Source of the DNA: Bacteroidota bacterium
GTDB lineage: Bacteria > Bacteroidota > Bacteroidia > Palsa-965
Assembly: GCA_006218065.1 (NCBI GenBank)
Contig: VBWE01000038.1
Coordinates: 1 to 49,294, forward strand
Length of the DNA stretch: 49,294 nt
Reading direction: 5' to 3'
A model generated the notes under the pieces. It did not search any database. It had not been told where the DNA came from and was given only the letters and a program-made list of their open reading frames with translations. The position numbers were made by a program, and so were the translations under genes. Below are positions 6,175 through 28,862 of this stretch, in pieces (the stretch's first letter is position 1; each line of letters starts with the position of its first letter).

Positions 6175-7299
6175 ATGGCTATTTCCCAAAAACGAAATAA
6201 AGATCGCGTCTACCTGGATTTTATTACACAAGTAAGACAGTCCATACAGCGAAGCCGCTACCAGGCCGCAAGACTCGTCAATAAGGAATTACTGCTGCTT
6301 CATTTGAAGATTGGAAGCCTGCTCAATGAACGCGTTGATTCGGAGGGCTGGGGAACGATGGTTATCCGAAGAATTTCATCGGATATCCAGCGCGCCTTTC
6401 CCGGAATAAAAGGGTTTTCCGCCCGAAATCTTTTTTACATGCTTTTACTTTACCGGGAGTACGCTCCGCAATTAGTGCAGACAGTGTCTGCACTAATTGA
6501 TAAACCTGCAGCCGGCAAAGAAAAAAAAAGCAAAAAGCAATTAGTGCAGGCAGTGTCTGCACTAGTTCCGGAAAAAAAATTCGCCGCCGCTTTTTTCAAT
6601 GTGGGGTTTTCACATCACATGGTTATCCTCAGCAAATGCAAAAGCCCGGAAGAACGCATATTCTATATGACCAAAACCGCTGAACAGCAATGGTCGTATC
6701 GCATACTTGATCATCATATTGATGCCAAGCTGTTTCGAAAACAAGGGAAACTTCAAAGTAATTTCAGGAAAATTCTTCCTGCTAAAATACAACAGCAGGC
6801 AATAGATGCCTTCAGGGATGAGTATTTGCTGGATTTTATCAATGTGCATGATACCGACAACGAAAATGTGCTGGAGCAAAAGATCGTAGGTAATCTCAGG
6901 AAGTTTCTGCTCTCGCTTGGAAACGAGTTTGCGTTTGTTGGTAACCAGTACAGGCTGGTAGTGGATGAAGAAGACTTTTTTATCGATCTTCTTTTTTATC
7001 ATCGGAAGTTGCGCTGCCTTGTTGCTTTTGAATTAAAAACGGGAAAATTTAAACCGGAATATACCGGCAAGATGAACTTTTACCTGAGCGCATTGGATGA
7101 TCTTGTGCGCATGCCGCATGAAAATCCGTCAATCGGTATTATTCTTTGCAAAGAAAAAAGTAAAACGATAGTCGAATATGCGTTCCGTGATACCTATAAA
7201 CCAATCGGTGTCGCCACTGTAAAATATACGAAAGAGCTTCCCGGCAAGTGGAAAGGTTTTTTACCCGGTCCCGATGCGCTTAAAAAACTGATGAACTGA
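6175..7299 (+). CDS. YhcG/DUF1016 family PDDEXK-type nuclease protein with duplicated palindromic insert
   Basis: 374 residues starting at the ATG five nucleotides after the serC stop. The N-terminal DUF1016 domain (about 10-100) carries the NKELLLLHLKIGSLL and FSARNLFYM motifs. The C-terminal part (about 150-350) has the nuclease-like core FFIDLLFYHRKLRCLVAFELKTG, with Asp271, Glu286 and Lys288 as the probable catalytic set. YhcG-type proteins are poorly characterised, and roles in DNA repair and in defence against foreign DNA have been suggested. Oddly, the linker between the halves contains QLVQTVSALI at 99-108 and QLVQAVSALV at 122-131, each encoded by a near-perfect DNA palindrome. Its place between serC and serA suggests insertion into an older serine operon. 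Confidence 0.88.
   Translation: MAISQKRNKDRVYLDFITQVRQSIQRSRYQAARLVNKELLLLHLKIGSLLNERVDSEGWGTMVIRRISSDIQRAFPGIKGFSARNLFYMLLLYREYAPQLVQTVSALIDKPAAGKEKKSKKQLVQAVSALVPEKKFAAAFFNVGFSHHMVILSKCKSPEERIFYMTKTAEQQWSYRILDHHIDAKLFRKQGKLQSNFRKILPAKIQQQAIDAFRDEYLLDFINVHDTDNENVLEQKIVGNLRKFLLSLGNEFAFVGNQYRLVVDEEDFFIDLLFYHRKLRCLVAFELKTGKFKPEYTGKMNFYLSALDDLVRMPHENPSIGIILCKEKSKTIVEYAFRDTYKPIGVATVKYTKELPGKWKGFLPGPDALKKLMN
6469..6499 (+). repeat. Palindrome, copy 1, inside the yhcG-like gene
   Basis: A perfect inverted repeat with 15-bp arms around a single central G (arm CAATTAGTGCAGACA). It is read in frame as QLVQTVSALI. Because it is a palindrome, the minus strand encodes a nearly identical peptide. Confidence 0.9.
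6538..6568 (+). repeat. Palindrome, copy 2, inside the yhcG-like gene
   Basis: 28 of 31 bases match copy 1, starting exactly 69 bp (23 codons) downstream. It is still almost palindromic and encodes QLVQAVSALV. The in-frame spacing preserves the reading frame. Confidence 0.9.
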
Positions 7300-10992: not shown

Positions 10993-12879
10993 CTACGCCT
11001 GCGATTTTGTAAATCTCTTTCGTACAAAAAACACAGCCAGCAAAAGTCCCAGTAAAATCCACAGCGAAGGCTCCGACATCTGGAATTCATCTTCGCTCGC
11101 ATCGAGACTTTTCTTCGAGCTCATCGTTTGCTTCTGTTTTTCGAGCAGCGCTTTTTCCTGCGCCTCCGTTTCCACGACGATATAAACGGTAAACGATGAA
11201 AGCAGCCTGGTTTTAAAACTTCCGCGCACGATATCGAGCCATTCCGCTTCCGTTTGCTCCGGGTGTAAAACAAGATTCCGGGCAGCGGCTTCCAGTTTCA
11301 GCGCATTTTCCAGCGTGGTTCCTTCACCGATTTCACCGGGTTCTTTTACCTCGCTGAAAACAAAGCTTCCCGAACTATCGGCAGGGAGATAATGCGTTTT
11401 TCCCGACTGATCATTATACTCATGAACAGGCGGCGACACAATGACCACCTTGCTTTGCGCAGTTTGCTGAACCGGGGCTTCGCCGATGGATTGCGGAACT
11501 AGATTCGCTTTTTTATCCAGCAAATAATAGCTATCGGATTCCGGCATTATGAAACGCATATCGGTCAGCGGGCGCGTATAAATCGCTTTATCCAGGCTAT
11601 CGCTAACCACTATAAATACCGGGCGCCGGTCATTTCCTGTTTTCGAAAAATGTTCCGCCAGTAATCGGCGCATGGCATTTTCAAGATTGAAACCGCCTTC
11701 GCAGGGAAAAGCGGAAAGTCCTTCGGTCCACGCCTCACCGATCTCCCAGCTCTGTGCCCGGTAATTGGCGGCAGCAACAACATCCTTTTTCTCCGGGGTA
11801 TTATGTTCTTTTTCAAACTGCCGGATGCGTTCAGCATAAGCACTCATCTTCGCGGAATTTCCGGCTGAAGCGTCCACGATAAAATAATATGCCGGATCGC
11901 GCGTCACCAATTTCAGTTTCTGCTTCGCTTCTTTACTTACGTATTGCATGGACGATCCGGGAAATCCTTGTATTCCTTTTACGTTATTTTTTGCCGGATC
12001 TCCCAACTGAACCCGCAGCGAATCCATGTCCAGCACAAACGGCTCGATATGTGAGAATGTAATGCCCGTCTGGCGGATTTCTCCGCCTGAAAAAGGGAAT
12101 ACGCGGAAATCGATTTTCCCGTCGTCGCGGTACCGCAGCAGTCCCGGGTCCTGCGCCCGCCGCACGATTTCCGTGAAAACCCAGGTCGCCGCTTTTTTCT
12201 CGGCGAGAATTCCTTTTTTCTTCTGGTCACCGACCACGAGGTAATAATCGCTGATCCAGCAACCGTCGGGAAGAGTAAAAACAGTGGAATAGGTTCGCCG
12301 GAATTCCGAAGCCGTATCCGTATTTTCTATTTGCAGGTCGAGCGTGGTTTTCCAGAGTTTTGCCGCCGGATCATATACGCTGCTCACGCGCTGGTCTTTT
12401 ATTTTCACCAGGCTGTCTTTCTCCGCGTTCAGGCGTGAAAAGAAACGCGGTCCGTTCCGGTCATCTGATCCGCAAAAAACACGGCGAAGCATATCGGTCT
12501 TCGAGCCGGACAGCGTAAGATGATCGAGCACCATCCAGCGGTAATACGCGTCGAGGTACGGCGTACCCTGCGTAAGCCCGGCAAACATATTCGGCCGGTC
12601 ATTTTTATTATGCTCCACGCGGTCCAGCGTCCGGTTCAGCGAAACCGTATCGATCCGCGGCTGCTCCTGCGAAAAATCCGGCTCGTAAAGCGAATCGAGC
12701 GCGTTGTGCAGCGTACGCCGGTCGGTGTAATACGTGATGGAAATAATAACCGGGATAACGGCAGAAGCGGCCACAGCAATACTATTGAGCAGTATTTTCC
12801 CATGATGCTGCCGATAGATAAAGGGAAATACGGAACGAAAACGAGAAAGAAATAAACCGTGAACACATAACTGAAACAA
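10993..12879 (-). CDS. XrtN-system VIT domain protein, C-terminal part (after frameshift)
   Basis: The ORF opens at an ATG at 12879, but its first 28 residues lie in the wrong frame. Coding character starts near 12800, where it continues the last transmembrane helix of the upstream ORF. A VIT domain follows (RTYSTVFTLPDGCWISDYYL, then KKAATWVFTEIVRRAQDPGLLR) and then a long exported region. The C terminus is a sorting signal of exosortase type: MSEPSLWILLGLLLAVFFVR plus basic residues. XrtN-linked VIT proteins are known partners of this exosortase. Together with the N-terminal ORF it would make one protein of about 918 residues, joined by a -1 shift at 12795-12801. Confidence 0.85.
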   Translation of the reverse strand: MFQLCVHGLFLSRFRSVFPFIYRQHHGKILLNSIAVAASAVIPVIISITYYTDRRTLHNALDSLYEPDFSQEQPRIDTVSLNRTLDRVEHNKNDRPNMFAGLTQGTPYLDAYYRWMVLDHLTLSGSKTDMLRRVFCGSDDRNGPRFFSRLNAEKDSLVKIKDQRVSSVYDPAAKLWKTTLDLQIENTDTASEFRRTYSTVFTLPDGCWISDYYLVVGDQKKKGILAEKKAATWVFTEIVRRAQDPGLLRYRDDGKIDFRVFPFSGGEIRQTGITFSHIEPFVLDMDSLRVQLGDPAKNNVKGIQGFPGSSMQYVSKEAKQKLKLVTRDPAYYFIVDASAGNSAKMSAYAERIRQFEKEHNTPEKKDVVAAANYRAQSWEIGEAWTEGLSAFPCEGGFNLENAMRRLLAEHFSKTGNDRRPVFIVVSDSLDKAIYTRPLTDMRFIMPESDSYYLLDKKANLVPQSIGEAPVQQTAQSKVVIVSPPVHEYNDQSGKTHYLPADSSGSFVFSEVKEPGEIGEGTTLENALKLEAAARNLVLHPEQTEAEWLDIVRGSFKTRLLSSFTVYIVVETEAQEKALLEKQKQTMSSKKSLDASEDEFQMSEPSLWILLGLLLAVFFVRKRFTKSQA

Positions 12880-13748
12880 CGCGCAGCATACAGGGCCAGC
12901 CGCAGTTTCTTATCCTGCGGCGATCCGAGGCAAAGTAAAATACCCGTTACCAAAGCTAATATGCTGAACCAGGACGATGAGAAATCGCCGAAAATGCCTA
13001 CCGCGTGCCTTGCTGTACCTTTCAGATCAAAAATGCCGTTGTTCAGCGCAAGTCCCAGTAAAGGGAAAGCAATAACCAGCGGAATTTTCCAGGCCAGGCT
13101 GTATTTTTTGAAGAACTCCGATTTCTTGCTGATGAGCAGGTAAATGGAACGCATCAGGAAGAACAAAAACAAAACCGTGCTCACGATAAAAATGATGGTG
13201 AGAATATGCCGCCAGGAATCGCCTTCGAAATCATAGGCGCGGAAAATGTTGATCACGTTGACAAGCAGGTACCAGGTAACCGGGAATGCAAGCGAGATGA
13301 GGAAACTCACCCAGCCTTTCGTATGCTGCACATCGGGCGTAAGCCAGTCCACCAGCAGCAGCACAGCGTACAGCAGCACCGGCATGATAAAGGTGTACGC
13401 GTACATGTGCAGGTCGCCCTGGAACATCATCCAGCGCGGAATATTCCAGGAAAGAATATCCGAACTTTTTTCAAAATACAGGTAAAGAAAGGACAGGTAA
13501 CCGGCCAGCAGGAAAATACAGAGCAGCGGGTGAATCGTTTTTTTCGTGAACTGGCAATACACGGCGTATCCCGTAAAAAGCAGCGTCATGCCGCCGAGCC
13601 AGCCGCCGAAAAGTTTCCAGTAATAGATATTCTCTTCTTCGAGCAGCGAACCGATTACATTGTACGCTCCTGCGAAAAGGAAAAAAAGTACGATTGCCGG
13701 TAACGTAACGAGCAGGTAAATCCAGAACGGTTTATGCAATGTTTTCAT
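12636..13748 (-). CDS. XrtN-system VIT domain protein, N-terminal membrane part (frameshifted)
   Basis: From the ATG at 13748, which overlaps the exosortase stop by 17 nt, the first 318 residues form about nine hydrophobic helices (FWIYLLVTLPAIVLFFLFAG onward). After 12795 this frame turns into Arg/Ser-rich text (SRLLFPSRITPTGVRCTTRS) with no membrane or VIT character, the usual look of out-of-frame sequence. The correct continuation is the -1 frame. The switch point contains GGGAAAA read as G GGA AAA, a textbook -1 slippery heptamer but also a homopolymer prone to indels. Recoding, mutation or sequence error cannot be told apart here. Confidence 0.82.
   Translation of the reverse strand: MKTLHKPFWIYLLVTLPAIVLFFLFAGAYNVIGSLLEEENIYYWKLFGGWLGGMTLLFTGYAVYCQFTKKTIHPLLCIFLLAGYLSFLYLYFEKSSDILSWNIPRWMMFQGDLHMYAYTFIMPVLLYAVLLLVDWLTPDVQHTKGWVSFLISLAFPVTWYLLVNVINIFRAYDFEGDSWRHILTIIFIVSTVLFLFFLMRSIYLLISKKSEFFKKYSLAWKIPLVIAFPLLGLALNNGIFDLKGTARHAVGIFGDFSSSWFSILALVTGILLCLGSPQDKKLRLALYAARCFSYVFTVYFFLVFVPYFPLSIGSIMGKYCSIVLLWPLLPLSRLLFPSRITPTGVRCTTRSIRFTSRIFRRSSRGSIRFR
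12795..12801 (-). other. Slippery heptamer GGGAAAA at the frame switch
   Basis: On the minus strand the zero frame reads ATG GGA AAA TAC. A -1 slip continues as ATA CTG CTC, giving IMGKILLNSIAVAASAVIP, an uninterrupted hydrophobic helix leading into the VIT part. No strong downstream stem is evident by eye. Confidence 0.6.
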
Positions 13749-14301: not shown

Positions 14302-14339
14302 GCTTTTTTCAAGCTATTGATTTTAAAGAAGAACAAACA

Positions 14340-14412
14340 ACCACAGAGGCACAGAGGACATGGAGTTCCACGGAGACTCTGTGTTTCTCTGTGTGCTCCG
14401 TGCCTCCGTGGT
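14340..14412. repeat. Intergenic word-built inverted repeat (CACAGAGG type)
   Basis: The left arm ACCACAGAGGCACAGAGGAC and the right arm, ending GTGCTCCGTGCCTCCGTGGT, pair imperfectly over about 35 bp. Each arm is itself made of near-copies of an 8-nt word (CACAGAGG / CTCTGTGT). Sequences of this look recur in intergenic regions of many environmental bacteria. It begins about 38 bp upstream of the exosortase start. Confidence 0.8.
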
Positions 14413-14603
14413 CGTTTTTGAAACAGTTCGTTTTGCTGTCTTCATGCGTTTAAGACCGGGTGTAAACGAAATATACTTCGCTTTAGTATCCGTATCGGCG
14501 CTTTTTGCAATTTTTCTGAATAACTGTTCCCTTTTTCCGGCTAAGTGTTTTTAACCCGCCATTAAATCCTTTCGTAAGGCGACTTTGCCACTCTTCACTT
14601 TAA

Positions 14604-14657
14604 CCCGACTTATGCAGCAGGAATCCGGAAATTGACCGGGGCGCTGCATTAGTCGGG
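14604..14657. repeat. Inverted repeat 1 of the gap array
   Basis: Arms CCCGACTTATGCAGC (14604-14618) and GCTGCATTAGTCGGG (14643-14657) match at 14 of 15 positions around a 24-nt loop. Confidence 0.85.
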
Positions 14658-14670
14658 GTTATCCCGATTT

Positions 14671-14722
14671 AGAAAAACACCATTCTGGTGCAATGAAATG
14701 AAGCCGGAATGGTAGTTTTTCT
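14671..14722. repeat. Inverted repeat 2 of the gap array
   Basis: Arms AGAAAAACACCATTC (14671-14685) and GAATGGTAGTTTTTCT (14707-14722) pair over 15 bp with one bulged base. The right arm ends in a T tract, so it could act as a terminator on the plus strand. Confidence 0.8.
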
Positions 14723-14733
14723 TAATCGCTATA

Positions 14734-14752
14734 CATTAGAAAAAATCTAATG
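14734..14752. repeat. Inverted repeat 3 of the gap array
   Basis: CATTAGA and TCTAATG flank a 5-nt A loop. The adjoining bases also form the 12-bp palindrome CTAATGCATTAG. Confidence 0.7.
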
Positions 14753-14805
14753 CATTAGCCTTGGATTATGTGTACCGTCAGCTTGCCGCTGTCCTGATAA
14801 TTTTA

Positions 14806-14862
14806 TCCCGAAATACGCATCAGCGATACAACAAATCTTTTATGGTCTGATGCTATCGGGAT
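14806..14862. repeat. Inverted repeat 4 of the gap array
   Basis: The left arm (14806-14823; TCCCGA then GCATCAG) and the right arm CTGATGCTATCGGGAT (14847-14862) pair over about 13 bp, with a small internal asymmetry and a 23-nt loop. Confidence 0.7.
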
Positions 14863-14872
14863 TCTCAAATCT

Positions 14873-14927
14873 AAGCGTTAGAAACCTCTTGATTAAAAAG
14901 AAACAGTACGAAAATTTTCTAACGCTT
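14873..14927. repeat. Inverted repeat 5 of the gap array, overlapping the promoter region
   Basis: AAGCGTTAGAAA (14873-14884) and TTTCTAACGCTT (14916-14927) are exact 12-bp inverted copies 31 nt apart. The right copy ends 10 nt before the -7 box at 14938, so it covers the expected -33 region. It could be an operator or a hairpin. Confidence 0.8.
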
Positions 14928-14937
14928 GATTTGGGTT

Positions 14938-14945
14938 TATCTTTG
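14938..14945 (+). promoter_or_regulatory. Candidate -7 promoter box of the Asp-box protein gene
   Basis: TATCTTTG matches TAnnTTTG, 20 nt before the ATG at 14966. A TTTTC stretch at 14915-14919 is the best -33 candidate, with an 18-bp spacer. Confidence 0.55.
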
Positions 14946-27642: not shown

Positions 27643-27712
27643 ATTGATTTGACTGGGCGGAAAAGCGCGTTATCAATGAGTTTTCACCAGAATTAACAAC
27701 AAAGTAAGTAGT

Positions 27713-27884
27713 CCGGGGACTCACCCCCCGGCCCCCTCTCTCCGCCTTCGACATGTCAGCAGAAACGGAAGATCGTTTTGCGTCGAAGACGCAAAGAGGG
27801 GGAGCGGGTGAGTGATATGAAGACAGCATTTTGGAAAACCAACGAAACTCACCCGGAGAGAGGGGGCCGGGGGATGAGTCCCGG
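27713..27884. repeat. GC-rich three-part intergenic inverted repeat
   Basis: The left arm contains GGACTCACCCCCCGGCCCCC and then TCTCTCCG. The right arm (27848-27884) contains its near-exact complement GGAGAGAGGGGGCCGGGGGA and then TGAGTCCCGG. A third partial copy, AGAGGGGGAGCGGGTGAGT, sits between them (27795-27813). A nested CTTCGAC / GTCGAAG pair lies at 27746-27752 and 27782-27788. The element fills most of the gap between divergent genes. No ORF is seen in it. Confidence 0.85.
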
Positions 27885-27917
27885 AAAAATAACTAACATT
27901 GGATCAAAATAACATGT

Positions 27918-28862
27918 ATGGGTCTTTTTGATCAAAAAACAGATACGGAATCCGTGATGTTGATGTACCTGAGGAACTGGAAACTCATCAGCATTGTAGT
28001 ATTGACATGCACGATAATGGCGATAGTCGTGTCGTTTATGCTCACGCCGCGCTACCGGGCCAAAGCGTCTTTTTTCATTCCTTTCAATACTTCGCTGGAA
28101 CTGGCCAATGAAAATCCGCAATTCGGCTATGACGTGGAAGCCGACCGCCTGTTGCAGATTATCCGGTCGGAACAAATGAAAGATTCGGTTACACAGCGGT
28201 TCGATCTGCCCAAATATTACGGTATCGATACCAGCAAATACGGCTGGCAGCAATCGCTTTCCACTATTTATGACCAGCGTATTTTCGCCAACCGCACCAA
28301 TGTGATGGCTATCGTGATCGAGGCGGAAATGCACGACCCGCTTTATGCAGCGAAAATCGTAGATTATATCGTCGGGCTTTCCCAGCGCATGCGCGAACGG
28401 ATTCTCAAAACCAACAGCCTGCTGGCCGTGGAATCTTTCAAAAAGGATTTTCTTGCGAAGCAGGCGGAAGTGGATACTTTGCAGGGAAAAATCCTGGCGC
28501 TGCGCCAGTCGCTGGGCGAAAGCAATATATCGGTCGTGAACGCGCAGATTATCGTGAACAATAAAATTTCCGGGAGCAAGCCCGAACTGCAGTTGCAACT
28601 CGAAGCGATGAGCCAGGCTTTTATCAACGAGCAGGAATTGCTCAGCGAACTGAAAGCCAAATACGAAATGGCACAGAATACCTGGATGCGTCCCATTCCA
28701 CAATTTTATGTGCTGGACAAAGCCACGCCGATTTACAAAAAATCGTACCCGCTTACCATCTTTAACGTGAGCGCCGGTTTTTTCGGCTCGCTGCTGGTGA
28801 TGCTTGCCGGCTTGTACCTCAAACATGTGATCCGGGCTATCCGGAAAAACAACCTGGCGTAA
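27918..28862 (+). CDS. Wzz-like polysaccharide chain-length/co-polymerase protein
   Basis: 314 residues with helices at about 23-43 and 283-303 flanking a large periplasmic region that is mostly helical, the topology of Wzz/PCP proteins. TPRYRAKASFFIPF follows the first helix, as in GumC/Wzz families. The coiled-coil middle contains ESFKKDFLAKQAEVDTLQGK. No cytoplasmic tyrosine kinase domain is attached. It begins a four-gene operon with no gaps, next to an O-antigen ligase-like gene, supporting control of surface glycan length or export. Confidence 0.85.
   Translation: MGLFDQKTDTESVMLMYLRNWKLISIVVLTCTIMAIVVSFMLTPRYRAKASFFIPFNTSLELANENPQFGYDVEADRLLQIIRSEQMKDSVTQRFDLPKYYGIDTSKYGWQQSLSTIYDQRIFANRTNVMAIVIEAEMHDPLYAAKIVDYIVGLSQRMRERILKTNSLLAVESFKKDFLAKQAEVDTLQGKILALRQSLGESNISVVNAQIIVNNKISGSKPELQLQLEAMSQAFINEQELLSELKAKYEMAQNTWMRPIPQFYVLDKATPIYKKSYPLTIFNVSAGFFGSLLVMLAGLYLKHVIRAIRKNNLA

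Follow-up and report, generated by a model that had tools for sequence, protein, structure and literature searches.

The chain of five hairpins between two divergent genes of a Bacteroidota bacterium very probably consists of two MITE-like transposable elements, here called A and B, that are small, non-coding, and made of hairpins and that inserted next to each other. The window, by which we mean the whole stretch of DNA analyzed, comprises 49,294 nucleotides (contig VBWE01000038.1, assembly GCA_006218065.1). Elements of this kind form dispersed multicopy families with precise ends and 5-bp duplications, their units also occur singly, and the fold of A is maintained by compensatory change. A preliminary description of this DNA had raised, among other possibilities, that hairpin-forming mobile DNA uses the region as a landing zone; the DNA is mobile, but it is made up of two inserted elements themselves and not of a landing zone. 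This kind of element is already known, and what is unusual is that the modular fold is conserved and that no mobilizing enzyme was found.

All five of the consecutive inverted repeats that had been described were found. H1 has arms at 14604-14618 and 14643-14657 with 14 of 15 positions paired, H2 and H3 extend over ∼14665-14728 and ∼14731-14758, H4 is an inverted repeat at 14806-14860, and the arms of H5 (14873-14884 and 14916-14927) pair at 12 of 12 positions. When both strands were folded, as the preliminary description had proposed, the hairpin region was far more stable than its dinucleotide shuffles (z scores of -9.0 and -6.9 for the + and - strands), and of the 490 340-nt windows taken from the 49 kb it had the lowest GC-corrected folding energy. 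Hairpins with at least 12 positions per arm and no more than one mismatch number three in this region, compared with a mean of 0.05 and a maximum of 1 in the shuffles. These data demonstrate that the five hairpins are real and that chance would not give so many long arms, as had been argued. The same description held the repeats to be unrelated to one another, which does not hold for all of them, as the units have common CCC/GGG ends and fall into two repeat families.

Other palindromes were observed in the window. The gap itself holds a third palindrome (14335-14417), a large hairpin that is imperfect and contains repeats of the CACAGAGG type. Ranking second in structure within the window, the region 27701-27920 is an intergenic long inverted repeat, GTCCGGGGACTCACCCCCCGGCCCCCTCTC...GAGAGGGGGCCGGGGGATGAGTCCCGG, that looks like another dispersed palindrome, and two close palindromic copies of GCAATTAGTGCAG(A/G)CAGTGTCTGCACTA lie in a coding region at 6460-6560.

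Element B (14807-14935, + strand) is a two-hairpin MITE-like element of 129 bp, composed of H4 (14807-14860) and H5 (∼14867-14935) and flanked by perfect TTTAT target-site duplications at 14802-14806 and 14936-14940. A search of the source genome with the gap found 14802-14944 repeated at ∼30 places with an identity of up to 92%, and oriented alignment gave sharp ends, CCCGAAATAC...TTGATTTGGG. Each of the 23 copies measured lies outside ORFs, and these copies occupy many unrelated intergenic sites in different orientations. Some copies contain an extra short palindrome between both hairpins, others are truncated, and one (L025) consists of H4 alone with perfect ATAAT duplications. B was not found elsewhere in 395 genomes of the class Bacteroidia. 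In several copies (L273, L270, and L015), the motif AGGCTGTTAGGAA / TTCCTAACAGCCTC substitutes for part of B and is possibly the end of another element inserted there.

Element A (14604-14764, + strand) is a three-hairpin MITE-like element, identified by homologues elsewhere and by a covariance model built from ten members, which the window copy matches over positions 1-161 of 161 (129.6 bits, E 3.5e-30). It starts with the unit H1 (14604-14657, + strand), which runs from CCC to GGG; this is followed by a GTTAT spacer at 14658-14662 and a second unit (14663-14764, + strand) that contains H2 and H3 and is closed by CCC...GGG pairing. The copy in the window is decayed, since it has lost part of the conserved internal-loop motif of H1 (about TAG-AAG...GAA-CTA); the copy of B is intact. 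From its sequence and the family rule, the left flank TTTAA (14599-14603) is a probable target duplication, and its right partner has probably decayed: the right flank ATTAT (14765-14769) agrees with it at only 3 of 5 positions, which counts against reading this copy as an insertion. A is present as a single copy in the source genome and is multicopy in other Bacteroidia genomes, where the covariance model found 41 (G023), 38 (G113), 27 (G052), and 17 (G261) copies; those of G113 are nearly identical to one another. At least one match to the A fold (E <= 1e-4) was present in 20 of the 395 sampled Bacteroidia genomes, which belong to 15 families; there was none in 11 genomes of the window's own family.

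All copies of A and B start with CCC, end with GGG, and are flanked by a duplicated 5-bp target, NTNAN, whose second and fourth positions are almost invariably T and A, respectively. When the bases left of CCC were compared with those right of GGG, the 5-mers were perfectly duplicated in 35 of 52 A copies (10,000 shuffles gave 6.9 on average and never more than 18) and in 11 of 23 B copies (shuffled mean 4.3, maximum 11). Letter by letter, 234 of 260 positions matched for A (shuffled mean 172, maximum 194) and 99 of 115 for B (shuffled mean 84.9, maximum 96). The match peaked at exactly 5 bp, with none at 3, 4, or 6-8 bp. Unusual targets were also equal on both sides (ATCAG/ATCAG, ATAAC/ATAAC, TTGAT/TTGAT, and ATAAT/ATAAT), and this pairing of non-consensus targets excludes a shared flanking motif as the explanation.

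MITEs are recognized by a size under about 600 bp without a transposase gene, dispersed copies with precise ends, a target duplication of fixed length, and terminal inverted repeats. A and B are 129-165 bp long and contain no ORF, their dispersed copies have precise ends, their target duplication is the 5-bp NTNAN, and their CCC...GGG termini are accompanied by a degenerate inverted repeat of ∼17 bp (about CCCAAATTAYGCATTAG), the two repeats not being identical. A third family in G113 (L323, L327, L331, and L332) has the same CCC...GGG ends with TTAAA-type flanks and a different interior of ∼150-210 bp.

Copies of H1 alone also have perfect duplications (L229, GTTAA/GTTAA; L230, GTTAT/GTTAT), and such single-hairpin copies make it probable that a lone hairpin is the smallest unit able to move. 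Full A elements have exactly five bases of NTNAN type between H1 and the second unit, and the T and A of this spacer are conserved and unpaired in 41 or more of the 42 copies aligned. The GTTAT at 14658-14662 is thus likely an internal target duplication. On the simplest reading, units would stack by insertion at each other's duplicated target, and the three-hairpin A is probably the product of such an event, in which one unit entered the duplicated target of a second and the invariant 5-nt spacer stayed behind. For B, the internal junction fits this reading less clearly.

The interior of A is conserved as a structure. In an alignment of 42 diverse members that was fitted to the covariance model, a procedure that favors the structure, 89.9% of cells were paired and 45 of 56 pairs had changed on both sides; compensatory cells numbered 390, compared with 44-92 in slid controls and 122 in shuffles, and the covariation score was 0.443, compared with at most 0.097 in slid controls. 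The first, structure-free MAFFT alignment already contained 13 pairs with double changes. In H1, covarying stems lie on both flanks of the conserved internal-loop motif. The excess of G-T over A-C wobble cells in A (127 versus 56) is no guide to the folding strand because an RNA model guided the alignment and B runs in the opposite direction (7 versus 15); the form under selection may be RNA, single-stranded DNA, or a cruciform. These results show that the interior fold of A is kept between families by compensatory change, which is unusual for a MITE. Such changes had been expected to support a functional RNA; they are abundant in the relatives of A, but they are tied to a dispersed element and not to this locus.

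The two elements lie between an exosortase K gene (start 14301, - strand) and a gene for a sortilin/Asp-box repeat protein (start 14966, + strand). The former had been taken for XrtN, but it scores 107 bits against TIGR04287 (cut-off 55), the exosortase K model. Downstream of it, an MSEP-CTERM gene (TIGR04286) is apparently split into overlapping frames, 12636-13748 and 10993-12879, that cover profile positions 1-299 and 335-919. Directly after B and ∼20 bp before the start codon of the 14966 gene, TATCTTTG (14938-14945, + strand) overlaps the right duplication of B and matches the Bacteroidota -7 box consensus TAnnTTTG (PMC9723704); it is a probable promoter element of the 14966 gene, and the hairpins are probably upstream of its transcription start and not in the mRNA leader. 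The two insertions would have pushed apart the upstream region of this gene, B would have replaced its original upstream region, and the placement of B's right end at the -7 box may have changed its expression. Comparison of homologous gaps, as had been suggested, found neither element in 11 genomes of the same family or at 80 loci with the downstream gene. The comparison genomes include none of the same genus, and no true empty site was recovered.

Two readings that keep the chain in place for the benefit of this locus can be weighed against these results. A structured regulatory RNA or mRNA leader (riboswitch-like or an sRNA), as proposed in the preliminary description, would account for the strong fold and for the heavy covariation in the relatives of A. 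We consider it very unlikely, as the chain is composed of two different families whose copies, each with its target duplication, are scattered over unrelated places. In relatives, the corresponding gap has neither element, and there is no credible match in Rfam 15 at gathering or permissive thresholds. In particular, every hairpin lies upstream of the probable promoter, which makes a leader role unlikely. It is also highly improbable that the hairpins are stacked repressor sites or other protein-binding palindromes kept for regulation of the 14966 gene, another earlier proposal. The palindromes are near a promoter, and four B copies adjoin TATCTTTG, but these are just 4 of 23, and the copies as a whole are spread over many unrelated intergenic sites and orientations.

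Two further readings invoke known recombination systems. Like A and B, REP/BIME palindromes, which are mobilized by the Y1 tyrosine transposase RAYT through single-stranded hairpins, are small, intergenic, multicopy units that can be single or composite, and Y1_Tnp genes are present in all but one of 16 genomes examined. An origin of A and B in this system is nevertheless very improbable in our judgment, given the exact 5-bp target duplication; IS200/IS605-type (Y1) transposition is not known to make a target duplication. No fold match was found within about 1 kb of sampled Y1 genes, so that A and B, in contrast to REP/BIME units, were not found to flank such a gene, and Y1 genes are equally common in element-free genomes. 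REP elements also have a GTAG or CGTC tetranucleotide tag next to the hairpin (PMC3733652), whereas A and B have none and end in CCC/GGG beside NTNAN. We give almost no credence to integron attC-like recombination sites. The H1 ends ACCCAAC...GTTGGGT in G016 and G023 fit the degenerate RYYYAAC/GTTRRRY boxes, but these boxes are absent in many members (CCCAGATT, CCGCAATT), no cassette array was seen, and the 5-bp duplications at the dispersed copies refute this reading.

As MITE-like elements, A and B would be moved by a transposase supplied in trans that cuts each end with a stagger of 5 bp. Target duplications of a fixed 5 bp typify DDE enzymes, in contrast to those of the Y1/HUH class, and we therefore infer that the enzyme would be of the DDE type. 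A MITE is expected to have a cognate autonomous element with matching ends; searches with IS1380, DDE_Tnp_1, Y1, and terminal patterns found neither such an element nor a transposase bounded by these ends, which counts against the MITE-like reading. IS1380, IS982, and IS4/IS5-type (DDE_Tnp_1) elements also have short fixed target duplications made by DDE transposases, but none was found with A or B ends, and IS1380 is missing from most carriers. No partner was found by end pattern in the source genome or in the 1-kb interval between two A copies of G023; in G113, the end pattern recovered one more MITE family that shares these ends, but no transposase. There was also no match among plasmids, phages, or viral contigs. 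Copies at contig ends were just MITE copies broken by assembly, and a DDE_Tnp_1 locus near a weak fold match was an IS982-like element with different ends. This element (G113, L281:1010-2084; ends ACCTGAGTTCGATTAATAA, terminating in ACCTGAG) adjoins another repeat (ACCAATGTGATTTATAAATTATGCC...) that is probably a further MITE family. A more speculative proposal, which we regard as possible though unlikely, is that Bacteroidia harbor a class of elements that are mobile as a folded single strand (an ssDNA or RNA hairpin with the conserved internal-loop motif). The enzyme responsible would be undescribed and would generate the 5-bp duplication, and the units would stack by insertion at each other's duplicated targets.

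Prokaryotic MITEs such as Correia, QMITE2, and BrickBuilt (PMC10969869) are, like A and B, small, non-coding, intergenic, and multicopy, with inverted-repeat ends, flanking direct repeats, and a stem-loop fold. A and B differ from them in that their interior consists of separable hairpins, each bounded by CCC/GGG, in that the interior fold of A is kept by compensatory change across many families, and in that no parental insertion sequence was found. Both families are part of a widespread MITE-like superfamily that is apparently undescribed; we found no description of either in the literature.

The usual view of MITEs is that they are short-lived remnants, derived by deletion from a single insertion sequence. 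An A fold that is common to genomes of 15 families and maintained by compensatory substitution suggests that mobility or persistence depends on the fold itself. The superfamily accounts for a class of strongly folding intergenic Bacteroidota regions that would otherwise be annotated as candidate riboswitches or sRNAs, and its missing mobilizing enzyme is a well-posed search target.
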